Below are positions 5,590 through 31,243 of a stretch of DNA of 32,525 nt, piece after piece. The translations under genes and the position numbers were made by a program. Under the pieces are notes generated by a model. The model did no database searches. It saw only the letters and a list, made by a program, of their open reading frames with translations, and was not told the DNA's origin. The stretch covers positions 1-32,525 of IMG/VR virus record IMGVR_UViG_3300046746_000245; one strand, written 5' to 3'. Every line of letters begins with the position of its first letter. Position 1 is the first letter of the stretch. The DNA is from a virus.

Positions 5590-6165
5590 TTATTGCGTTT
5601 CTAAAAGACCGTATCCGAGCTTGGTCATCAACGTGTCTGCTAGGTTAGGATAACGAGTGACAATGTCCTCGACGAACTTATCTTGTTCTTTTGCGTTCAT
5701 ACGAGCCACGCTCTCTGCGGCGTCACTGATCGTTGCCTGCTTAGGTAGTTTAACTGCCTTAGGCTTACGAGCGACCTTCTTAGGCTTAGGCTTAGAGCAA
5801 GTATAAGAGTCGCTCCAGCTACCTACTGAAATACTATAGTAGAAGGCAGTGTGGAAATAATCTGTCATTGAATCTGAATCATCAAACCACGCACGACCCC
5901 CTGGAACTGAAGCTGGCGCAGTGTGGATGATCTCTAGCATTTTTTCGAACATCTTTTGATGACGTCCTGTGCGATTCAAATGGTATTGATTGATTTGAGC
6001 GTGTCCTCGCTCATCTGTAATGTCACTGAAGTCTACAGTGCCTGCCTTAATAATAATGTCTACGGATGAATGATGTTGCTTGCGAACGCCGAACTTTAAC
6101 TGTGGAAAAGCCTCTTTTAATTGCTGACGAATTGCACGAACCTCTGGAGTGGAAATATAAGCCAT
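5590..6165 (-). CDS. LPD29-like domain protein (191 aa)
   Basis: ATG at 6165 follows GAGGG. The N-terminal 120 residues resemble the large polyvalent protein-associated domain 29: AIRQQLKEAFPQLKFGVRKQ, then a beta stretch SVDIIIKAG, and FHTAFYYSISVGSW. LPD29 occurs in phage and conjugative-element proteins; its function is unknown. A basic linker (KPKPKKVARKPKAVKLPK, residues 124-141) may contact nucleic acid. The C-terminal part is helical. Single-gene unit between two early promoters. Confidence 0.7.
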   Translation of the reverse strand: MAYISTPEVRAIRQQLKEAFPQLKFGVRKQHHSSVDIIIKAGTVDFSDITDERGHAQINQYHLNRTGRHQKMFEKMLEIIHTAPASVPGGRAWFDDSDSMTDYFHTAFYYSISVGSWSDSYTCSKPKPKKVARKPKAVKLPKQATISDAAESVARMNAKEQDKFVEDIVTRYPNLADTLMTKLGYGLLETQ

Positions 6166-10073: not shown

Positions 10074-10493
10074 TTACTTAAACCAGCCTACCTTTTCTCC
10101 AGCATCTAATCTACGTGTATGCTCTTCAACTGTTCCTGGATACCTCCACGCCCATATTGCAACTAATGCCATAAAGCCTCCGCTCCATATTGCAGCATTG
10201 ATATTATAGGTTGTGAACCATAGGAATGCAAGTGAAGAACTCATTACAATCACCATTGCATATTTGCCTTTTGTTGGAAATACTCTCTTTTGTGTCCAGT
10301 TTGTAAGGAACGGGCCAAAGTATTTGTGATTGTATATCCAGTCGTGCATCTTTTTACTACTTTTTGCAAAACAATAAGCAGCAAACACTAAGAATATACT
10401 GAACGGTATTCCCGGAACAATTACACCAACATATGCCATACCGAGACTCATAAAGCCTAAGCAGAGCCATATATACTTTTTAATTTTATTCAT
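10074..10493 (-). CDS. DUF454 (YbaN-like) inner membrane protein
   Basis: About four membrane segments and the family signature are visible: [19 protein letters not shown] near the start, [27 protein letters not shown], and a lysine-rich TKGKYAM. DUF454/YbaN proteins are inner-membrane proteins of unknown function. The start codon overlaps the end of the 5-aminolevulinate synthase gene by 8 bp, implying co-expression from the late promoter at 11706-11714. The link with heme synthesis is therefore positional. Confidence 0.85.
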
Positions 10494-11682
10494 AAATTAC
10501 CTTTCGTAGTGCATCAACTAGCTGATGCATCATCGCATCTGTATGTAAAGGAGTAGGCGCAATGCGTAAACGTTCTTCTCCAACTGCAACCGTCGGATAG
10601 TTGATCGGTTGAATGTATATACCAAACTCATTTAATAATGTGTCGCTCATAGTTTTGCATCGTTTGGCATCACGAACCATTACAGGCACGATGTGAGTGC
10701 AAGCAACATCAAGAACTTCTATGTCCACCTCGGATAACATTGCTTTTAGTTTATCTGCACGTTCTTGATGTTGCACTCTAAGGTCGTTATGATCCTTAAG
10801 ATATTTAATAGAAGCAAGAGCACCTGCACAAAGTACAGGGCTCATGCTTGTAGTAAAGATGAATCCACTCGCAACAGATCTGATTGCATCAACTACGATG
10901 CTATCTGCGGAAATGTATCCTCCTTGTACTCCATAGGCCTTACCTAAGGTGCCGTTTACTATATCGACTCTATCTTGAATACCTAGCTTTTCAAGGTAGC
11001 CTGCTCCATGGTTCCCATACAATCCTACCGCATGGACTTCATCGATATAGGTCATTGCGCCGTAGGCGTCTGCTAAATCACAGATCGAAGTTACCAGAGA
11101 CACATCGCCATCCATGCTATACACGGACTCAAAGACTATGCAAGGCGTAAGTCCTTTGGCGGAGACTTGACTCAGTTTCTCCTCTAGATCGCTCATGTCA
11201 TTGTGCTGCCATATGATCTTGTCAGCACCACTGTGTCGGATACCCTGTATTAGGCTTGCATGATTATTTGAATCACTCAAAAACACAATGTTGGGAATGA
11301 TTTTGCTTAGAGCTACTAGTGACCATTCATTGGCAACATAAGCTGAAGTAAAAAGGAGAGCAGCTCCTTTGCTATGCAGTCGGGCCAGCTCACTCTCTAA
11401 TGCTACATGATAGTGACTTGTGCCGCCAATGTTTCTTGTTCCGCCTGAACCACTTCCTGTTTGATCCAGTGCAGTATGCATCGCATCTATCACTACCTTA
11501 TGCTGACCCATACCTAGATAGTCGTTACTACACCAGTTCACAATATTCTTTATATTGTAAGGACCGTACCAGATAGCTTCAGGAAAATCTCCACGCTCTC
11601 TTACTATATCATTAAACACTCTGTACTTGCCAGATTGTTTTAATTCGTCTATTGTGTTTTCAAATGGTGTTAGATCTATCAT
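10486..11682 (-). CDS. hemA: 5-aminolevulinate synthase
   Basis: A PLP-dependent alpha-oxoamine synthase that would condense glycine and succinyl-CoA to 5-aminolevulinate, the first step of heme synthesis by the C4 (Shemin) pathway. At 398 residues it is full length. Key residues are present at the Rhodobacter-type positions: D214 and H217 ([10 protein letters not shown]) and the PLP lysine K248 ([10 protein letters not shown]). Also seen are [27 protein letters not shown] and [16 protein letters not shown]. The last two features distinguish ALAS from related AONS/KBL enzymes. The C4 pathway is essentially alphaproteobacterial among bacteria, so the gene points to the host class. It is probably active. 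Confidence 0.93.
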
Positions 11683-18115: not shown

Positions 18116-18868
18116 ATGAAGATAGGAATAGCAGGTTACGGATTTGTAGGTAAAGCACACGAAGGTGCTTTGAAAGATTATCATGACTTAATTATATATG
18201 ATCCTGCACTTGGACACTACGGTGATCTAAGACATGCAGATGCAATTATTGTTTGTGTTAGTACGCCTCAAGGTTCACACGGCGGATGTCATATGGATAA
18301 TGTGTATGATGTTGTCAACAACAATTCTAATGTACCAATATTAATAAAAAGTACAATTAGTATCGAAGGATGGGACATGTTGAAACATGTATTTCCTTTT
18401 ACAAGTATAACATTTTCTCCGGAGTTCTTAAGAGCAGCATCAGCACTAGAAGACTTTCAAAACACCGACACAATATTATTAGGCGGTGGTAACACAGGCT
18501 TTTGGGCTGATATCTTTATTACAGCAATGGGTAAAATTAATGTTAACATAGCAAATCCAAAAGAACTTATTGTAACAAAGTATGCTCGCAATAGTTTCTT
18601 GGCACTCAAGGTTGCATACTTCAATCAAATAAATGACCTGTGTAAGGATGCAGGTGTTGACTATGAGCAAGTAAGAATGTATACTACACTAGACAATAGG
18701 ATAGGTGAAAGCCATACTACAATAACAGATGAACGTGGGTTTGGCGGACATTGCTTTCCTAAAGACACAGGTGCATTTATTGTGTCAGGAAAAAAGTACG
18801 GCGAACATCTATCAATATTAGAAGAAGCAATAAAATATAACCATCGGGTCAGAAAGGATGACACTTGA
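18116..18868 (+). CDS. UDP-glucose/nucleotide-sugar dehydrogenase-like protein
   Basis: The N-terminal Rossmann motif [11 protein letters not shown] (residues 4-14), [11 protein letters not shown] with E103, the [18 protein letters not shown] segment with K165, and the catalytic cysteine C213 in [11 protein letters not shown] are all present. These enzymes oxidise a UDP-sugar to the uronic acid with two NAD. At 250 residues it stops after the catalytic cysteine domain and lacks the C-terminal UDP-binding domain (usual length about 390-450). Its activity is therefore uncertain, but the same short form could be a phage-adapted version. Possible use: capsule or glycan change. Confidence 0.8.
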
Positions 18869-18870
18869 AA

Positions 18871-19803
18871 ATGAAGATTATCACAGGAAACGCTAATCCT
18901 AAATTAGCAAACGAGATTGCTGAACATTGTTTTAGCGACCTTGTTCCAGCCAAAGTCACTACCTTTGCAGATGGTGAAACAAGCGTAGAGTTCCAAGAAA
19001 ATATACGAGGAGAAGATGTTTTTATTATCCAAAGCACAGCAACTCCTGTTAATGATAGTCTTATGGAATTAATGATTATGATTGATGCTGCCAAGCGCAG
19101 CAGTGCAAAACGTATAACCGCAGTAATACCTTATTTTGGATATGCACGACAAGATCGTAAAAGTGCAAGTCGTACTCCTATCACAGCAAAACTTGTTGCA
19201 AATTTAATTACAACATCAGGTGCTGATAGAATACTTACTATGGATTTACATGCCGGACAGATACAAGGTTTCTTTGACATCCCTGTGGATGATTTAACAA
19301 GCCGTGTAGTCTTTGCTAAAGACATCAAACGTAATGTAGGTACAGATGATGGCACTGTGTTTGTATCACCTGATGCAGGCGGTGCTGTTAGAGCCCGTAA
19401 GTTTGCAGACATGTTTGGTGGTGACATTGCTATTGTAGACAAACGTAGGCCTGAAGCAGGCAAGAGTGAAGTAATGGCCCTAATTGGTGATGTTAAAGGA
19501 AAACATGCTATCCTGGTAGATGACATTGTTGACTCAGGCGGAACACTCTGTAGTGCAGCCAAAGCAATTATGGACGCAGGTGCATTGTCAGTTCGTGCAT
19601 ACATTACACACGGTGTATTGTCAGGAGAAGCATGTCAAAAAGTTGAGAAGAGTGTGCTAGAAGAACTAGTAATCACTGACAGCATTGCAGATCGTTGTCC
19701 TAGGAACTGCAAAAAGACACGACAGGTTAGTGTCGCGCCTTTGTTTGGTGAAGCGATACGCAGAGTAACTAACGAAGAGTCAGTGAGTAGTTTGTTTGTA
19801 TGA
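18871..19803 (+). CDS. prs: ribose-phosphate pyrophosphokinase
   Basis: Makes PRPP from ribose-5-phosphate and ATP, feeding nucleotide and NAD synthesis. Recognised by [11 protein letters not shown] (88-98), the metal site [12 protein letters not shown] (D125, H127), the [13 protein letters not shown] loop (190-202) and the PRPP loop [12 protein letters not shown] (214-225). At 310 residues it is full length. I start at ATG 18871 ([12 protein letters not shown]), not the TTG two codons earlier. It directly follows the dehydrogenase gene in one operon and overlaps the small gene after it by 4 bp. Confidence 0.93.
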
Positions 19804-19955
19804 ACAAGATACCTATGAAAGGCGGAGATGAATACGATGGCTTAACCAAAGCACGTAAGTTCTATTCCTGGAGTAAAGGACAACTCAAAAAGATTAAACG
19901 AGGTTATAATAAACGACTTCGTAAAACAGGAAAGAACTTAAATGAGGATTCTTAG
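19800..19955 (+). CDS. small basic conserved protein (51 aa)
   Basis: ATG at 19800 overlaps the prs stop (ATGA). The product is lysine/arginine-rich and helical: [19 protein letters not shown], then [18 protein letters not shown]. Basic character suggests RNA or DNA binding. I have the impression of similar short proteins in other marine phages, but no function is known. The stop overlaps the convergent lipase gene by 4 bp. Confidence 0.7.
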
Positions 19956-20710
19956 TCTAGTTTACTAATGTGTTTGATATACTCGACCATCGAATGATCG
20001 CCAAAGCTATCTATCTTACCTTTCTTTAGACCCATCCATATACCACGCCATCTATCTTTGATCATTTGCCATCCAGTAGGTTTTCTATACTTACCATAGG
20101 CATTAAGATAATGCTGGGTACCATGATGAATGTAGCCCATAAGAGCAAGAGGAACAGTCGTTACAATATCATTATTGTTCTTCCAACGATGATGTACAAC
20201 ATTCAGACTATTGCAATACTTTTTCCAACCTACACGTGGTGAACCAAATGTATACAACTCAACTGGATCGTTTAATTCTATATCGTGCATACAACGGCTT
20301 GCCATAATAGTTGCCATTGCCGCACCCAAGCTATGTCCGCAGAACCATAATGTTTTACCTAAGTTTGCTTTACGGGCAATGTCTTCAGATATCATTGGCC
20401 ATAGTTCGTCAACTTCTGCTTTGAATCCTCTGTGTACTCTACTAACAGTTTCTGCCATTACTGGCATTGCCTTTAGGTCTGCACTTATATCATTGAACTC
20501 AGTTGGCTGTGTTCCGCGACATGCAATTACTAAATCGTGTTTGTTCATAAAACGATATGCTTGAGCACCGTCTCTTTCATAAAATTCTGTTGTTGTAAAT
20601 CCTAATTTTTTTGCTTGCTTTGTAGCATCTTTGATGTTACTATATGCTATACTAGCCAAATTTGCAAATAATAAGGATCGTTCTTTGAAATTCATTTTTT
20701 CTATTGACAT
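19952..20710 (-). CDS. class 3 lipase / alpha/beta hydrolase
   Basis: The lipase_3 pattern is clear. LVIACRGTQ (oxyanion region, residues 60-68), DLKAMPV, VHRGFKAEVDELWP, the nucleophile elbow GHSLGAAMA with S127, YTFGSPRVG (153-161), then D181 (NNNDIVTTVP) and H239 (FGDHSMVEY) complete the triad. Start ATG 20710 has GGGGAGGG upstream and is preferred to a longer frame that would include the late box at 20734. No signal peptide, so it would act inside the cell: perhaps on host membrane lipids at lysis or for precursor recycling. Monocistronic. Confidence 0.9.
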   Translation of the reverse strand: MSIEKMNFKERSLLFANLASIAYSNIKDATKQAKKLGFTTTEFYERDGAQAYRFMNKHDLVIACRGTQPTEFNDISADLKAMPVMAETVSRVHRGFKAEVDELWPMISEDIARKANLGKTLWFCGHSLGAAMATIMASRCMHDIELNDPVELYTFGSPRVGWKKYCNSLNVVHHRWKNNNDIVTTVPLALMGYIHHGTQHYLNAYGKYRKPTGWQMIKDRWRGIWMGLKKGKIDSFGDHSMVEYIKHISKLD

Positions 20711-20733
20711 AAGTGCCCTCCCCTTTACTAAAC

Positions 20734-20741
20734 TATTTATA
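20734..20741 (-). promoter_or_regulatory. late promoter box TATAAATA
   Basis: Perfect TATAAATA on the minus strand 24 bp upstream of the lipase ATG, back to back with the plus-strand box at 20752. Confidence 0.75.
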
Positions 20742-20751
20742 AACACGCAAC

Positions 20752-20779: not shown

Positions 20780-21028
20780 ATGAAAAAACAAACACGAAGT
20801 ATTTTGCAAGAGTTAAGCAACTTAGGTTCTAATGATAATGATTTTTTAATTGAGTCTAGTGCAAACAATATAATAGAAAGTGCTATTAATCTTATGAATA
20901 GGATTAATAGAAACTATGATCCTGTGACAGCTAGTGAACTTGAACGTAGATTTATTAACTCCATCAAGTCAGGCGATCCACGTAAATTTAAACGCGGTAT
21001 CAGTAAAGTTATTGAGAGCAAAAAATGA
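20780..21028 (+). CDS. hypothetical late protein with capsid-targeting-like start (82 aa)
   Basis: Begins MKKQTRSILQELSNLG, with L-x-E at residues 9-11 as in T4 capsid-targeting sequences. Two helical segments follow (NNIIESAINLMNRINRNY; ASELERRFINSIKS), then a basic end (RKFKRGISKVIESKK). It is coupled by a 4-bp overlap to the nucleotidyltransferase-like gene. No family recognised; packaging is inferred. Confidence 0.7.
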   Translation: MKKQTRSILQELSNLGSNDNDFLIESSANNIIESAINLMNRINRNYDPVTASELERRFINSIKSGDPRKFKRGISKVIESKK

Positions 21029-21843
21029 TTTTAAAAGAAGGCGGCAACGTATTTAAAACTGAACCTGACAAGAAACTTATTGCATCAAGAATCGCAACAG
21101 TTGATGTAAAGCCTACTATTGATTGGCTTAATTCTACATTTGGATTTAAGTTTACTCCAAAGGAATTTTTAGGAACTACTGGTACAAAAACACATCCAGA
21201 CGGAACATTCGAAAAGAACTCATCTGGTGACCTAGATCTTAATACTGATACTAGAGAGTTACCTAAGGAAGAAATAATTGCAAAACTTAGTGCGTGGTGT
21301 CAAAAGCAAGGCATCCCTGATTTAGAGATTATGAACAAGGGCAGAACATTTGAAGCAGGTTGGGTAAAAGATGCTGGGTTGCAGGTACACTTCCGCACAC
21401 CTATAAAGGGTGATCCTAAAAACGGTTTTGTTCAAACAGATTTTATGCTTACAGACAATCCAGATTTACAACGTGGAGCCAAGCGTGGTGGCAGTGAAAA
21501 CTTTACTGGTGCTGATAGAGCTGTACTACTTTCTAGTCTTGCTAGAGGTAGAGGATATAAGTTTAGTCCAACCAAAGGTATAGTTGATCCTAACAATGGC
21601 GATGCAGTAGTTGCCAACAACTGGGACGAGATTGCTGAGATACTATTAGGCAAAGGTGCTAAAGAACCAGACACCCATAGTGTTGAAAGTATGCTTGCAA
21701 AACTAAAAGGCGATCCTAACTACGATACACTAGTTGGTCCATTTAGAGATAATATGGAAAAGGTAGGCAAAACATTACCTGAAGCAGTAGTTGAAACACT
21801 TGCTGACAAACATTTAAGTAGGCTAAAGGAATTATTACCGTGA
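21025..21843 (+). CDS. nucleotidyltransferase-like phage protein (272 aa)
   Basis: The opening MILKEGG has L-K-E at residues 3-5. A possible nucleotidyltransferase (pol beta/MNT-type) active site is visible: a GTTG turn (50-53), SGDLDLN with D69 and D71, and a third carboxylate D139 in GFVQTDFML, each at the end of a predicted strand. These would bind metal and NTP. No family name can be given, so the call rests on three acidic residues in a fitting order. The 4-bp overlap with the ligase-like gene downstream (GTGA) suggests a functional pair. Confidence 0.55.
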   Translation: MILKEGGNVFKTEPDKKLIASRIATVDVKPTIDWLNSTFGFKFTPKEFLGTTGTKTHPDGTFEKNSSGDLDLNTDTRELPKEEIIAKLSAWCQKQGIPDLEIMNKGRTFEAGWVKDAGLQVHFRTPIKGDPKNGFVQTDFMLTDNPDLQRGAKRGGSENFTGADRAVLLSSLARGRGYKFSPTKGIVDPNNGDAVVANNWDEIAEILLGKGAKEPDTHSVESMLAKLKGDPNYDTLVGPFRDNMEKVGKTLPEAVVETLADKHLSRLKELLP

Positions 21844-22991
21844 GGTTTAGAGAGTTTAGATTATTTGAATCAAAAGAAATATTAACTGAAGGTGCTCGCA
21901 TCGACCATGCAGAAGACATTGTTTTCTGGGAAGGTAGTAGAGGAGCTCTTCGTGCATTGGCTGCATTAGAAAGCCTTGAGCAAGGAGGACACAAAGATGT
22001 CACACTCAAATGGGACGGCTCCCCCGCAATCATATTTGGTCGCGATGAAACCGGAGAGTTTATACTTACAGACAAATCTGGATTCACAGCAAAAGGGTAC
22101 GATGGCAAGCCAAAAAGCGGGAAGGACCTTGCGAACATGCTCGGCGCCCGAAAGACCCGTAAAGGGCAGGAGATTGACAGTAAACAAGCGGCCTTCATGA
22201 GTAATATGGAAAGCATATTTGATTATTATGAAAAGGCAACGCCTGCTACATTTAGAGGTTTCTTCAAAGGAGACCTGTTATACTATCAAAGACCGCAACT
22301 AAAAAATGATAAGTTCATGTTTACTCCTAACATAGTTTCATACTTTGTAGATTCTAAAAGCGAACTTGGAATGAAAATAGGATTAAGCACAACTGGTGTT
22401 GTAGTGCATCGCTACATAGACTTAAACGGAAACGAATCACAAGTAACACAAGAGCAACTAGATGTTATGCAAGGAAGAGATGTCCTTGTTGTGCCGCCTG
22501 TGTATACACAAAAGCCTGTCGCAGTTGATAATAAAAACATTGCACAACTAGAAACAATGGTTAAACAACACGCAGGCAAAATAGATGAATTATTAAATAA
22601 AGATGAACTTCGCCAAAAGCAGTTGACAAACCTATCGGATATACTGTATACTTATGTTAATAAGAAAGTAGACAGTTCACTAGCTAATCTAGGTGCAGAC
22701 TTTTCGCAATGGATTACAACAACGAAGCTAAGTAAAAAGAAGCAGGACAATGTCCTTTCACACATCGCAGAACATCCTATTGCGTTTGACAGTTTATGGA
22801 AAGTAGTAAGTGGTATCATTAAAATTAAAGATGCTATTATTAATCAACTTGACTCGCATGAGGCAGAAGTAACACAAAAGATAGGTACACAGAGCGGTGG
22901 CGAAGGCTACGTAATGAAACATAAGAATGGGGATATCAAACTAGTACCCCGTGAAGTATTCAGTAAAGCAAACAGAGCAAAACAACGCTAA
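21840..22991 (+). CDS. DUF6267 protein, divergent ATP-ligase-like
   Basis: GTG start overlapping the previous stop; begins MRFREFRLFESKEIL with L-F-E at 8-10. IDHAEDIVFWEGSRGALRAL and DVTLKWDGSPAIIFGRDE mark it as the DUF6267 phage family. I also see the order of covalent nucleotidyltransferase motifs: motif I K57-WDG, motif III-like FFKGDLLYY (141-149), motif IV E355-GYVMK and motif V IKLV (366-369). If real, K57 would carry AMP or GMP, as in DNA/RNA ligases and capping enzymes. No OB domain is evident. The stretch encoding motif I (about 22000-22200) has unusual codon use. Confidence 0.65.
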   Translation: MRFREFRLFESKEILTEGARIDHAEDIVFWEGSRGALRALAALESLEQGGHKDVTLKWDGSPAIIFGRDETGEFILTDKSGFTAKGYDGKPKSGKDLANMLGARKTRKGQEIDSKQAAFMSNMESIFDYYEKATPATFRGFFKGDLLYYQRPQLKNDKFMFTPNIVSYFVDSKSELGMKIGLSTTGVVVHRYIDLNGNESQVTQEQLDVMQGRDVLVVPPVYTQKPVAVDNKNIAQLETMVKQHAGKIDELLNKDELRQKQLTNLSDILYTYVNKKVDSSLANLGADFSQWITTTKLSKKKQDNVLSHIAEHPIAFDSLWKVVSGIIKIKDAIINQLDSHEAEVTQKIGTQSGGEGYVMKHKNGDIKLVPREVFSKANRAKQR

Positions 22992-23001
22992 GGAGAAGCA
23001 A

Positions 23002-23394
23002 ATGAGAGCTAAAGAATTTATCAAAGAAGCAGACATTCCACAGAACTTTGATCTTACGCCAGAGCAGCGTAAGGCAGCACAAATGGGTTGGACTTTAAAA
23101 GACAGGGCAGCAAAAGTAAACGACGACAGATTGTCTGTTGCTATGGCACGAGTAGGTGACGAACTTACAGACTGGAAGAAAGGTGCCTATGGTGCTAAGA
23201 CTCTTGAAGAACTGGCAAAGAAGTCAATGGTTCCACTAGAGTTGGTGAAAAAACTTATTAAGTTTGCATCAGAGCAAAAAAGTACAATGCCTGACAAATC
23301 AACTGTACAGCCAGATAAAGATGACGACAGTGAATTTGCTGCACCAAGCGACCGCGATGTTGATCGTGATGCAAAAGATTTTGCAAGAGGATAA
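23002..23394 (+). CDS. late protein with capsid-targeting-like start (130 aa)
   Basis: ATG 23002 follows AAGGAGAAGCAA; the longer frame from 22951 overlaps the previous gene. MRAKEFIKEADIP is almost the T4 internal-protein leader (E5, F6, I7-K-E9). The body is helical and charged (DELTDWKKGAYGAKTLEELA), with an acidic tail (DKDDDSEFAAPSDRDVDRD). No domain recognised. Packaging is inferred. Confidence 0.75.
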   Translation: MRAKEFIKEADIPQNFDLTPEQRKAAQMGWTLKDRAAKVNDDRLSVAMARVGDELTDWKKGAYGAKTLEELAKKSMVPLELVKKLIKFASEQKSTMPDKSTVQPDKDDDSEFAAPSDRDVDRDAKDFARG

Positions 23395-23399
23395 TATCT

Positions 23400-24347
23400 T
23401 TGGAACGTTATACTGCATCACAGTGGGCAGAGATAGAAGGCGGACATGAAGTAACTCCTGAGAAGGAAGAAGGCTTTTCTTTCTTAAAGGAACTGCAAGA
23501 AGGTCGTATGACTAGAGATGCAAACGATGCCCGTAAACTTACCTATACAGATTGTAAACGTAATTTGTATCTGACTATGATGTGTTTGGAACTTCTAAGG
23601 CAATTTCCTACATATGCTGAAAATGCAATGCAATATGCAAGACGTAGTTCAGGGTATAGACAATACAGTAAGTTTCGTCCTGCTTCTACTGATATGTATA
23701 ACTTTATGTATTTTGTAAATGGCGATGAAGCAGCAATTAGTGCGTTAAAAGATCCACAGGCAGCAGCCCGTGAACGTGCTAGTACAAATGTTCCTACTCG
23801 TCAAATACATTATTACATTAAAACATTAGGTGCTGGTCAACCTCCTAGCAATGTTATGCAAACATTCACTGCTATGGAAAGAGCATTTAATATAACTGAT
23901 TCTAGTTACAAAGCAACACGTAGACGCATTGTAAACTTTGCAGAATTAAATGGTATGGATAAAAAAGTAGCAGTTACAACGCTTCTCTTAGCTGCTCGTA
24001 CTCATTTAAGAGCAAGTGATATTATAGATGATCTTAGCAAAGCGGTTGCAAAGTATAACTTAGAAACAACAACAGTACGTGATAATAATCCTACTGTTAG
24101 TGATCCTGATATCGGCTTTGACGATAGAGACTTATTGCTGTATAGATATATTGTAGGTAATAAGAATCTAGCGCAAACAAGATTGTTCTTAAAGAAAGCA
24201 CAGAACGGTGAAAGTGTTCCTAGTACAGCAGTAAAAGCATATCAGCCTGCTGTAAAAATGCTTAACGATATAGTTCAAGCAGGGCCTGGATTTGTACAAC
24301 AATTAAGATTATTGCACAGCAGATCTAAGAAATATACAAAGAAGTAA
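23400..24347 (+). CDS. hypothetical late protein (315 aa), TTG start
   Basis: TTG at 23400 lies about nine bases after GAGG and five after the previous stop; the first in-frame ATG (23508) would cut 36 residues. The protein is helical and basic, with an early FSFLKELQEGR segment, a tyrosine-rich middle (YARRSSGYRQYSKF, DMYNFMYFVNG), a possible helical array (RRRIVNFAELNGMDKKVAVT) and a basic end (LLHSRSKKYTKK). I do not recognise a family. It closes the 20780 operon. Confidence 0.7.
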   Translation: MERYTASQWAEIEGGHEVTPEKEEGFSFLKELQEGRMTRDANDARKLTYTDCKRNLYLTMMCLELLRQFPTYAENAMQYARRSSGYRQYSKFRPASTDMYNFMYFVNGDEAAISALKDPQAAARERASTNVPTRQIHYYIKTLGAGQPPSNVMQTFTAMERAFNITDSSYKATRRRIVNFAELNGMDKKVAVTTLLLAARTHLRASDIIDDLSKAVAKYNLETTTVRDNNPTVSDPDIGFDDRDLLLYRYIVGNKNLAQTRLFLKKAQNGESVPSTAVKAYQPAVKMLNDIVQAGPGFVQQLRLLHSRSKKYTKK

Positions 24348-28281: not shown

Positions 28282-28962
28282 ATGAGTTTAATTACAAAAG
28301 TTTATGAATATAAAGAAATTAAGCGTAAGTCAGTAGATGGCAAGCGCAAGTATCTAACACCTGACGGCAATGCTGTTGCTAGTGTTACAACTATACTAGA
28401 TAATACAAAAGATAAAACTCACCTTATCGCCTGGCGTAAACGTGTAGGTGAAAAGAAAGCACAAGAAATTACAACTGAAGCAGCAGGTGTAGGAACACGT
28501 ATGCACAAGTACTTAGAAGATTATGTCGACTATGGTACGTGGGCAGAACCTGGAAGTAATCCTTATGCTAAACAAGCACACATGATGGCTACACAGGTAA
28601 GAGAACATGCTATGGTTCACGTGGATGAAATATGGGGTAGCGAAGTTGCATTATATGTTCCACAGATGTATGCCGGCACAACTGACCTTGTAGGCAAATA
28701 CAAAGGTAATCCCTGCATAATGGATTTTAAACAAACCAACAAGCCAAAGAAATTAGAATGGGTTGAAGATTACTTCCTACAGCTTACAGCATATGCAATT
28801 GCACATAATGAAGTTTATGGTACTGATATCCGTGAAGGACATATTTTTATGTGCAGTCGTGCAGGAGAGTATCAACAGTTTGATCTATGGCCACACGAGT
28901 TTGAAGAATGGGAACAAGAATGGTGGAAAAGAGTCTATGCATATTATGAGAAGCATGGATGA
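28282..28962 (+). CDS. PD-(D/E)XK exonuclease, MGME1/RecB-like
   Basis: Metal-dependent DNase fold with motifs in order: GTRMHKYLED (H75), GSEVALY (E121), AGTTDLVGKY (D135), CIMDFKQTNKP with D148 and K150, and QLTAYAIAHN (Q167). The same set is found in mitochondrial MGME1 and phage RecB-like exonucleases, which trim DNA ends in replication, recombination or host DNA degradation. TGGAG lies before the ATG and a sigma70 promoter upstream, so it may be made before late proteins. Overlaps the next gene by 4 bp. Confidence 0.85.
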   Translation: MSLITKVYEYKEIKRKSVDGKRKYLTPDGNAVASVTTILDNTKDKTHLIAWRKRVGEKKAQEITTEAAGVGTRMHKYLEDYVDYGTWAEPGSNPYAKQAHMMATQVREHAMVHVDEIWGSEVALYVPQMYAGTTDLVGKYKGNPCIMDFKQTNKPKKLEWVEDYFLQLTAYAIAHNEVYGTDIREGHIFMCSRAGEYQQFDLWPHEFEEWEQEWWKRVYAYYEKHG

Positions 28963-29525
28963 TTAATTTACAATTATATTTTCCTACAGTGATAGGAAAT
29001 AGTTATCAACATGAACTAAGGAACGAGTTACTGCCTATCGTTAAGGACATACTCTCAAATGACGATAACATAACAAATGAATGGGGTTATAAAAATACCT
29101 ATAACGGACATGAAGGTTTAGAAAAGTTATCTTCAATGCAGCCTTTTAATGATTTTATTAAAGAAGCAGGTAGTAATTATCTGCAACAGTTGGGCTACGC
29201 TGATATTGAAATAAATCCTGTAATCTTTGCAAGTGAAATGCACAAAGGAGATAGCCATGATAGGCACTGTCATCCAGGTGCATTGTTGTCAGGAGTGTTT
29301 TATTTAGATTGTCCTATAGGTTCAAGTGACATTAATTTTTACGATCCTCGATCTTTCCGTGATGTTAGAGCATTAGAGCGTGTTGACACTAATATATTCA
29401 CTAGCGACTCTGCAATCTATACTCCAGAAAATGGTTTGTTTTTAATATGGGAGTCTTGGATACATCACCAAGTTTCTGTAAACAATAGCGACACTGGAAG
29501 AATTACATTAGTGTTCAACGCATAA
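28959..29525 (+). CDS. 2OG-Fe(II) oxygenase-like protein
   Basis: The layout fits the putative 2OG-Fe(II) oxygenase group of marine phages: an aromatic N-terminus (LYFPTVIGNSYQH), the iron-site HDRHCHPGALLSGVFYLDCP (H103/H105), NFYDPR (D129), and the distal ESWIHHQVSVN (H169/H170) followed by R181 for 2-oxoglutarate. Such enzymes hydroxylate proteins or nucleic acids. Substrate unknown; its position just upstream of the tail spike gene could mean virion protein modification, which is inference. Confidence 0.8.
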   Translation: MINLQLYFPTVIGNSYQHELRNELLPIVKDILSNDDNITNEWGYKNTYNGHEGLEKLSSMQPFNDFIKEAGSNYLQQLGYADIEINPVIFASEMHKGDSHDRHCHPGALLSGVFYLDCPIGSSDINFYDPRSFRDVRALERVDTNIFTSDSAIYTPENGLFLIWESWIHHQVSVNNSDTGRITLVFNA

Positions 29526-29529
29526 ATAT
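29521..29529 (+). promoter_or_regulatory. late promoter box CATAAATAT
   Basis: CATAAATAT overlaps the previous stop, 17 bp before the tail spike ATG. Confidence 0.6.
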
Positions 29530-29545
29530 GTTATAGGAGATCGAA

Positions 29546-31243
29546 ATGGCTGTAGTTCAAATATCACGTATACAAGTTCGTAGAGGACAAAAGAATCAAG
29601 GCACTGGCATACCTCAACTAGCAAGTGGAGAACTTGGTTGGGCAGTAGATAGCCAAGAGCTTTATATAGGTAACGGAAGTGTAAGTGAAGGTTCACCTGC
29701 TGTAGGTAATACAAAAATACTAACGCAAAATGAAAATATATTTGATTTTGCCAATGACTATGAATACAAAACACTTGATCCAACTATCACAACAGGCAAA
29801 GATAGTAACAGCCCTGTTCAAAGAACACTACAAAGTAAAATGGATGACTGGGTGAACGCAGAAGACTTTGGTGTTATACCGGGTGTAAACTGTACACGTG
29901 AGTTACAAAATGCTTTATTACAATTATATCCTAGTGACATACAGAATACTTCAACAGCAAAACGTGTAAACCTGTTTATAAAGCCAGGAGTGTATTCACT
30001 TTCAAGCACAATTTACATTCCTAGTAATGTAACACTTATTGGTGCAGGTAAAGAAAATACAAAGTTTGAATCAACTGCTAATGTTGCTTTTCAAATAATT
30101 AACTCATATGATGTCAACAATGGCGGCGCACAAGTTTCAATTGATTGGGCATTGACTGCACAAGCAGCTACCTATACCAGTGTAACAGGTGCAGGACTAC
30201 CTACTACAACTGCAAGCAATCGTCCACGTAATATCAACTTACAAGGCTTTACTTTAAAATCAATGATAAATGATTGTGTTTTGATACAGATGGATGCACC
30301 AATGTTTTGTAAAATTTATGACGTTGCTCTAGAAGGTATTTGGGCAATGAACGATCCATTATATGCTTCAAAGGCAGCAGTCGTTATCACAGCAGAAAAC
30401 AATACTGATACAACAAACTTATCATTTACTGAAGTAGACTTTAAAAATACCAACGTAGGTATTTTGTCTAATTATGATGCACATAAAATACATTGCTCAG
30501 GTTGTAAGTTTAGCACACATAGCAGAGCAATTATATTTGGACAGACAATCACTAACGTAGCTGGTAGTACAAATGGTCCACAAGATGCACTAATTGAACA
30601 CAGTCATTTTGAAAACACTAACTTAGAAGCAATCCTAGTTGACAAAGGTAGCAACAATAGAAGTAAGGAAAATACTTTTGTGACCTGCGGTAACAATGGG
30701 GGCAATGAACTTAACCAAGCACATCCTGTTATTAAGTTTACAACACCTAGCAATGAAAGCTCCCTAGATTGGTTTGGTAGAACAGACAGTGCAGGTGATA
30801 CAACATCGTTCCTTAGTATTGATTATATACCTGAAGTAAGTGGCCCTGGTCGTCATACACAAAGGCGTAACACACATAAGTTTATGATTGAAAATCTATC
30901 ATCAACAACTAAGGTAGACTTTATAAGATTACCAGGTGATGCTAATCGCACAGCAATTATTGATTATGATTATAGTTCACAAGCAGAAGATGCAAGACGC
31001 AACGGACGCTTGGTTGTAACTTACGATGCAGTTGATAATAGCATTTATTTAGAAGACGATCATCACATTGTCGGAGCAAGTGCTTTAGATGGTGTAACTA
31101 GTTTACCAAAACTCAGATTCTTTACACGATATGATGCTAATATTAATACAGTAATAATAACATATCAGAATCAACTAGACGAAAGAGTAGGATCAACCTA
31201 CGATGGTGCAAACTTTAACTTTAAACTAACTTATGTGAATTAA
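29546..31243 (+). CDS. tail fibre/spike with pectate-lyase-like beta-helix
   Basis: AGGAGATCGAA precedes the ATG. Residues 6-45 (RIQVRRGQKNQG, then LASGELGWAVDSQELYIGNG) match the N-terminal domain of phage tropism determinants and short fibres. From about residue 103, AEDFGVIPG and CTRELQNALLQLYP mark the start of a pectate-lyase-superfamily right-handed beta-helix, and repeated strands follow to about 430 (INLQGFTLKSM, VDFKNTNVGILS, HSHFENTNLEAIL). A distinct C-terminal beta domain ends the protein. It probably binds, and might cleave, a host surface glycan. No catalytic residues can be assigned by eye. Confidence 0.85.
   Translation: MAVVQISRIQVRRGQKNQGTGIPQLASGELGWAVDSQELYIGNGSVSEGSPAVGNTKILTQNENIFDFANDYEYKTLDPTITTGKDSNSPVQRTLQSKMDDWVNAEDFGVIPGVNCTRELQNALLQLYPSDIQNTSTAKRVNLFIKPGVYSLSSTIYIPSNVTLIGAGKENTKFESTANVAFQIINSYDVNNGGAQVSIDWALTAQAATYTSVTGAGLPTTTASNRPRNINLQGFTLKSMINDCVLIQMDAPMFCKIYDVALEGIWAMNDPLYASKAAVVITAENNTDTTNLSFTEVDFKNTNVGILSNYDAHKIHCSGCKFSTHSRAIIFGQTITNVAGSTNGPQDALIEHSHFENTNLEAILVDKGSNNRSKENTFVTCGNNGGNELNQAHPVIKFTTPSNESSLDWFGRTDSAGDTTSFLSIDYIPEVSGPGRHTQRRNTHKFMIENLSSTTKVDFIRLPGDANRTAIIDYDYSSQAEDARRNGRLVVTYDAVDNSIYLEDDHHIVGASALDGVTSLPKLRFFTRYDANINTVIITYQNQLDERVGSTYDGANFNFKLTYVN

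Follow-up and report, generated by a model that had tools for sequence, protein, structure and literature searches.

Why would a virus encode, in two overlapping genes, a putative nucleotidyltransferase and a ligase-like protein of the DUF6267 family, and why do both proteins begin with what resembles a signal for packaging into the virus head? The question is raised by record IMGVR_UViG_3300046746_000245, whose 32,525 nt, probably a fragment of a virus genome, are the window analysed here. We call NT the Pol-beta-like gene or its product and LIG the DUF6267 gene or product that follows; handles such as L012 and L015 designate compared loci. A first-pass annotation had described two open reading frames (ORFs) with a 4-bp overlap, which are present (overlap letters GTGA; Table 1), and had interpreted them as a repair or modification pair. 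The linked motif pair is confirmed and its interpretation is partly supported. We give about even chances to the hypothesis that NT and LIG are a transferase and a ligase packaged in the virion that repair cut RNA at the start of infection.

LIG residues 21-379 match PF19782 (DUF6267) with an E-value of 1.7e-34 and 120.2 bits versus a curated cut-off of 27, which upholds the family label given earlier. An alignment with 99 non-redundant homologues from viral contigs, 29-99% identical to the window protein, has K57, D59, G60, R68, D145, H190, E355, G356, K367 and R371 invariant (99/99). The segments KWDG, FFKGDLLYY, EGYVMK and IKLV, assigned in the annotation to ligase motifs I, III, IV and V, are all at their announced places, and K57, E355 and K367, whose conservation had been set beforehand as the refutation test, are invariant. 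As a canonical ligase set, motifs I and IV stand, and III and V deviate. The motifs persist in DUF6267 proteins of cyanophage, Stenotrophomonas, Vibrio and Methylophilales phages, about 20-25% identical to LIG where compared. Judged on the alignments, the conservation of the LIG motifs and of the NT signature exceeds chance. LIG shares with T4 RNA ligase 1 (RnlA) the KxDGS form of motif I, the EGYV...K of motifs IV-V and a nearly equal motif spacing (EGYVAVMKDGSHFKIK in RnlA versus EGYVMKHKNGDIKLVPR in LIG). No match of LIG to the T4 Rnl1 and Rnl2 families is found in Pfam, and no mention of DUF6267 was found in the literature searched.

The AlphaFold (AF2) model of LIG has a predicted local distance difference test score (pLDDT) of 92.3; residues 1-19 are disordered in it, and a mostly helical segment (231-339) comes ahead of motif IV. 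The protein ends 16 residues past K367, its final element being a helix (371-382), and has no C-terminal OB domain; the capping role evoked in the annotation is unlikely because this domain is absent. Searching BFVD, a database of predicted viral structures, ranks DUF6267 proteins and cytidyltransferase fusions first. The first 'RNA ligase' outside DUF6267 is gp66 of Agrobacterium phage Atu_ph07 (E 6.5e-4, probability 0.99, template modelling (TM) score 0.3), followed later by ICP46/RNA ligase, a CcrBL9 RNA ligase, RnlA, a polynucleotide kinase (PNK)/ligase and a capping enzyme. In the PDB the top match is to a fungal tRNA ligase, in its adenylyltransferase domain (E 0.01, probability 0.47), and DNA ligases and capping enzymes fill much of that list. 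The nearest neighbours beyond DUF6267 are RNA ligases and capping enzymes, and the unrelated fold that would have spoken against the annotation was not seen. Since the BFVD neighbours are RNA ligases and capping enzymes and the PDB matches have low TM, we read LIG as a probable divergent ligase core that is not a close member of a named family. The specific likeness to Rnl2 proposed earlier is not supported at the level of profiles. Comparing DUF6267 by hhalign to a set of jumbo-phage ligase-like proteins gives an E-value of 1e-3 restricted to motifs IV-V (reversed control 0.23). PDB sequence searches with the LIG and NT profiles returned nothing useful.

NT carries GTTG, SGDLDL and D139 as first described and displays the Pol-beta superfamily signature, composed of a G-G/S turn, DxD and a third carboxylate. 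The triad is invariant in an alignment of 81 homologues, as are G53, S67, G68, Q137 and M141 together with the triad residues D69, D71 and D139 (81/81). The AF2 model (pLDDT 93.4) gives a best Foldseek match in the PDB with E 9.4e-4 and probability 1.00 for a TM of only ~0.4; the top 50 matches are all family X DNA polymerases (beta, lambda, mu, TdT and PolX of African swine fever virus (ASFV)), not the MNT proteins to which NT had been likened. At the level of this model NT has the characters of a nucleotidyltransferase with a Pol-beta-type fold. It has no match in Pfam or PHROG. RlaP (PF10127) was rejected as the NT family, with no match in related contigs and an hhalign E-value of 0.25; the PF10127 profile matches a gene of Atu_ph07 other than the NT homologue. 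CCA enzymes were also tried and rejected.

The two genes are found together in most related loci. The 293 loci fetched from viral contigs, many of them redundant and two of the fetches having used NT, include 276 with both NT and LIG, adjacent or fused and in either order. Counting pairs by distinct sequence, the overlap is 4 bp in 133, 1 bp in 17 and of another length in 6; in 2 the genes lie no more than 30 bp apart, in 14 the distance is larger, and 13 are fusions. Both NT-LIG and LIG-x-NT (992 amino acids (aa)) fusions are observed. The 992-aa proteins (L207:3912-6887 and similar ones in L208, L210-L212, L214, L216 and L218) have NT at the carboxyl terminus and, in the middle region, a second transferase-like signature, GSAG...GDIDV, with a weak profile match. 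Two giant ORFs extend the association. The 1156-aa product of L012:3634-7101 combines cytidylyltransferase-like, HAD, NT and LIG domains, its HAD domain being similar to a polynucleotide-kinase PHROG, and the 1428-aa product of L015:3-4286 combines HAD, HD, NT and LIG domains; a search for further copies of the latter recovered L015 alone. The fused HAD/PNK-like, HD and cytidylyltransferase-like domains are of kinds typical of RNA end repair. The coupling is stronger than the annotation claimed, considering the conserved adjacency, the fusions in two orders and the pairing in jumbo phages.

DUF6267 relatives are present in 468 phage records, mostly of cyanophages, and in many uncultured marine T4-like phages, and the search of bacterial genomes gives only three contigs, probably phage, of two metagenome-assembled genomes. 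The NT homologue of Atu_ph07 (hhalign E 1e-24) adjoins gp66 (UniProt A0A2L0UZB7, RNA ligase), which has a weak match to PF09414 RNA_ligase (E 0.002). Gp66 is the nearest named structural neighbour of LIG outside DUF6267 and is encoded beside an NT homologue, although its profile match to DUF6267 is not significant at the sequence level and gp66 is itself uncharacterised. Sinorhizobium phage Phosso has the same gene order, with NT beside an RNA-ligase-like gene. Phosso has two NT paralogues (L301:8240-9133 and L329:5998-6858), one next to the ligase-like gene and the other alone elsewhere. Phosso repeats the locus order of primase, helicase, 82-aa gene and then ligase and transferase, and several marine contigs have primase-like and helicase-like genes ahead of the 82-aa gene. 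In PA5oct, genes for primase, helicase, the 82-aa protein and a ligase-like protein are present, and no NT was found. PA5oct gp257 and gp258, virion proteins identified by mass spectrometry (MS) and encoded beside the 82-aa homologue, were considered as the pair and discarded, their translations being unrelated. Searching related large contigs with PF09414 gave one sub-threshold match only.

In cyanophages the neighbour or fusion partner of DUF6267 is a cytidylyltransferase-like protein, and PHROG 455 is that composite of two domains. The DUF6267 gene comes after the gp41 helicase and MazG genes (phage records; L397, L400 and L402). The members in Syn9 (gp183) and S-RIM14 are ~100 residues shorter and keep the ligase motifs. 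A PD-(D/E)XK nuclease guessed by eye upstream of cyanophage DUF6267 is unsupported by Pfam.

Phage T4 gp21 cleaves after L/I-X-E. A leader of 10 residues, that of IPIII, is enough to target proteins into the T4 head (PMC9026906). Of 142 distinct NT sequences, 141 have [LVI]xE immediately ahead of GG, P3 and P1 being fixed and P2 free (LKE, LNE, LFE, LSE, LLE). In LIG, [LIV]xE[GASDE] is found within the 25 aa before HxED in 145 of 155 distinct N-termini. The DUF6267 protein of phage DLP_6 also bears a leader. The rate is 91% for the 82-aa gene and ~71% for the clusters of the genes at 23002..23394 and 23400..24347, for 0-8% in the clusters of nearby lipase, phosphoribosyl pyrophosphate synthetase, dehydrogenase and helicase genes. 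These statistics across families support the packaging-like leaders that the annotation saw on both proteins. An S77 protease and a gp23 with a YLAE site are encoded by both relatives whose contigs cover head genes, and an S77 prohead protease is found in four named phages as well. In L015, seven [LIV]xE[GAS] sites lie at or between predicted domains, including just before HAD, HD, NT and LIG, and L012 too has L-x-E sites at its domain joints, which suggests that these giant ORFs encode a packaged polyprotein cut during head maturation. The Atu_ph07 pair (CDS 65 and 66 by count) sits inside the gene cluster CDS 31-76, for which 29 proteins were identified in virions, a figure for the cluster as a whole. 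From sequence comparison, virion packaging of NT and LIG is well supported but unproven.

The leaders could also have no role in packaging, L-x-E ahead of GGN/GAR being structural or translational and the enzymes acting only after their synthesis in the cell. This explanation cuts across the RNA, DNA and other-target readings of the pair. It would suit the leaderless DUF6267 protein of P-RSM6 and the leaderless NT of Atu_ph07 and Phosso, which starts M-GG at the predicted mature end. It does not readily account for a site with fixed P3 and P1 and variable P2, for the disorder of the LIG leader in the model, or for sites that recur at the L012 and L015 domain joints and are missing from non-virion neighbours. 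We consider it rather unlikely, while the best placed of the alternatives.

Retaining packaging, we infer the following scheme, from entry into the head and ejection to the chemistry, the order of its steps and the RNA substrate. NT and LIG would be a working pair. LIG would belong, as a divergent member with a single domain, to the superfamily of covalent nucleotidyltransferases (ligases), and its K57 would accept AMP (or GMP) from a cofactor. The short leaders would draw both proteins into the prohead and the S77 (gp21-like) protease would remove them after L-x-E; mature NT and LIG would then be ejected together with the DNA. In the new host NT would restore or add nucleotides at a damaged end and LIG would seal the break. 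The likeliest target would be RNA, for instance tRNA cut by host defence nucleases; RNA is favoured as substrate because the structural neighbours include RNA ligases, the fusions bring in end-healing domains and an OB domain is missing.

Several observations weigh against this scheme. Motif III has D145 in place of the usual E in all 99 homologues, and motif V reads K-L-V-x-R, without the second lysine of the usual KxK, V occupying that position in 98/99. The PDB structure matches of LIG are weak and all of low TM, and hhalign of DUF6267 to T4 Rnl1 (E 0.09) and Rnl2 (E 0.04) is not significant, with negligible probabilities. The closest folds to NT are DNA polymerases. NT is without LIG in six loci (L084, L085, L086, L228, L256 and L260); there is space there for LIG downstream, yet the next conserved genes follow directly. 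The DUF6267 protein of cyanophage P-RSM6 has no leader, and PA5oct gp256 is not flagged as MS-detected.

Repair of DNA ends, NT filling short gaps and LIG sealing nicks in the incoming phage genome, would parallel the role ascribed to PolX and the ligase of ASFV. It keeps a minor share of the probability, since NT resembles DNA polymerases, ASFV PolX included, in all its top-50 PDB matches and the locus follows replication genes, here primase and helicase. However, DNA ligases and capping enzymes have an OB domain, which LIG, ending shortly after motif V, lacks. RNA ligases are the nearest named neighbours of the LIG model, and the HAD and HD domains found in fusions suit RNA end healing better, leaving repair of the incoming genome improbable. 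Slightly less probable still is nucleotide addition to a protein, a tRNA end or a small molecule (e.g. NAD/nucleotide signalling) instead of strand repair, which would fit the protein-modifying enzymes known among Pol-beta folds, the swapping of partners with cytidylyltransferase-like (HIGH) enzymes in cyanophages and L012, and the altered motifs III and V, but not the ligase-type motifs I, IV and V retained by LIG or the pairing of NT with an RNA-ligase-like protein in two jumbo phages.

The preferred reading, RNA repair by a packaged pair, has known counterparts. Phages are known to counter RNase-based defence through RNA repair by a transferase and a ligase together with kinase, HAD and HD-like healing enzymes (PMC7824862). 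As in the phage systems with RNA ligase and RlaP, a Pol-beta-fold transferase and a ligase-superfamily enzyme are encoded together, with kinase/phosphatase, HAD or HD healing domains nearby. The NT-LIG pair may work like these systems, yet it fits neither Rnl1, Rnl2 nor RlaP: NT is outside PF10127, LIG matches neither ligase family, and here both proteins bear packaging-like leaders and are fused in some phages. DUF6267 departs from RnlA by a helical insertion ahead of motif IV, the D of motif III and the absence of both KxK and a C-terminal domain, and the profile match between them is not significant. T4 internal head proteins and Alt likewise have a short N-terminal leader ending in L/I-x-E and are packaged and delivered at infection (PMC9026906), whereas packaging is only predicted here and the cargo is a putative repair pair instead of an ADP-ribosyltransferase or a nuclease inhibitor.

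Table 1. Positions in the window of the genes, motifs and predicted leaders of the NT-LIG locus.
Feature	Position	Strand	Evidence
82-aa gene, operon head	20780..21028	+	phrog_11854 (head and packaging), E 7e-15
NT, predicted Pol-beta-fold nucleotidyltransferase, 272 aa, ATG start	21025..21843	+	AF2 model, invariant catalytic signature
NT leader MILKE, predicted prohead-protease cut before GGNVF	21025..21039	+	[LVI]xE site
NT GTTG, residues 50-53, putative nucleotide-binding turn	21172..21183	+	Alignments A2 and A4
NT SGDLDL, residues 67-72, putative metal-binding D69 and D71	21223..21240	+	Invariant 81/81
NT QTDFM, residues 137-141, putative third carboxylate D139	21433..21447	+	Q137, D139, M141 invariant in 81
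LIG, predicted DUF6267 ligase-superfamily protein, 383 aa, GTG start	21840..22991	+	PF19782, AF2, BFVD neighbours
LIG leader, residues 1-17 MRFREFRLFESKEILTE, predicted cut before G18	21840..21890	+	L-x-E at 8-10 and 15-17
LIG motif I, K57-W-D-G	22008..22019	+	K57, D59, G60 99/99, also in distant DUF6267 proteins
LIG motif III, G144-D145-L-L-Y-Y (FFKGDLLYY, residues 141-149)	22269..22286	+	D145 99/99
LIG motif IV, E355-G-Y-V (EGYVMK)	22902..22913	+	E355, G356 99/99
LIG motif V, K367-L-V-P-R371 (IKLV)	22938..22952	+	K367, R371 99/99
Gene after LIG, start MRAKEFIKE/A resembling a T4-type capsid-targeting leader	23002..23394	+	Clusters 14 and 15
Conserved gene further downstream	23400..24347	+	Cluster 3, 219 loci

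NT and LIG close a run of three genes on the + strand with 4-bp overlaps at both joints, headed by the 82-aa gene. Tblastn finds homologues of this first gene in PA5oct, Erwinia and other jumbo phages, annotated there as virion structural protein, and 224 of the compared loci keep the gene upstream of NT. A ribosome-binding site precedes position 23002. The gene at 23400..24347 has an Atu_ph07 match (E 1e-3), and its homologue comes after NT in Atu_ph07 and, by eye, in Phosso. A class 3 lipase gene (19952-20746, - strand; cluster 5, 173 loci, that is most related loci) lies just upstream of the operon on the opposite strand. It is preceded at 18116-19803 by UDP-glucose dehydrogenase-like and ribose-phosphate pyrophosphokinase-like genes, the latter of which could bear on nucleotide or NAD supply. 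Elsewhere the window encodes a protein with a large-polyvalent-protein-associated domain (LPD29; 5590-6165, - strand), a class I/II aminotransferase (10486-11682, - strand) and, at 28282-31243, a PD-(D/E)XK nuclease-like protein, a 2-oxoglutarate-Fe(II) oxygenase and a protein with an Mtd N-terminal domain and a pectate-lyase-like part, a candidate tail fibre. A DNA-level search of phage records gave no match.

We tentatively propose, with clearly less than even confidence, that DUF6267, which hundreds of sequenced cyanophages and many uncultured marine T4-like phages encode, constitutes a ligase family not recognised so far and, where it bears a leader, is part of a repair kit delivered by the virion with a Pol-beta transferase, made in a few phages as a protease-cut polyprotein of HAD, HD, transferase and ligase. 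Candidate packaged enzymes of uncultured T4-like phages can be listed simply by applying the leader rule. If the proposal is true, a Pfam domain of unknown function would gain a function, and nucleic-acid repair enzymes would enter along with the genome and would not have to be synthesised in an infected cell whose translation may already be attacked.
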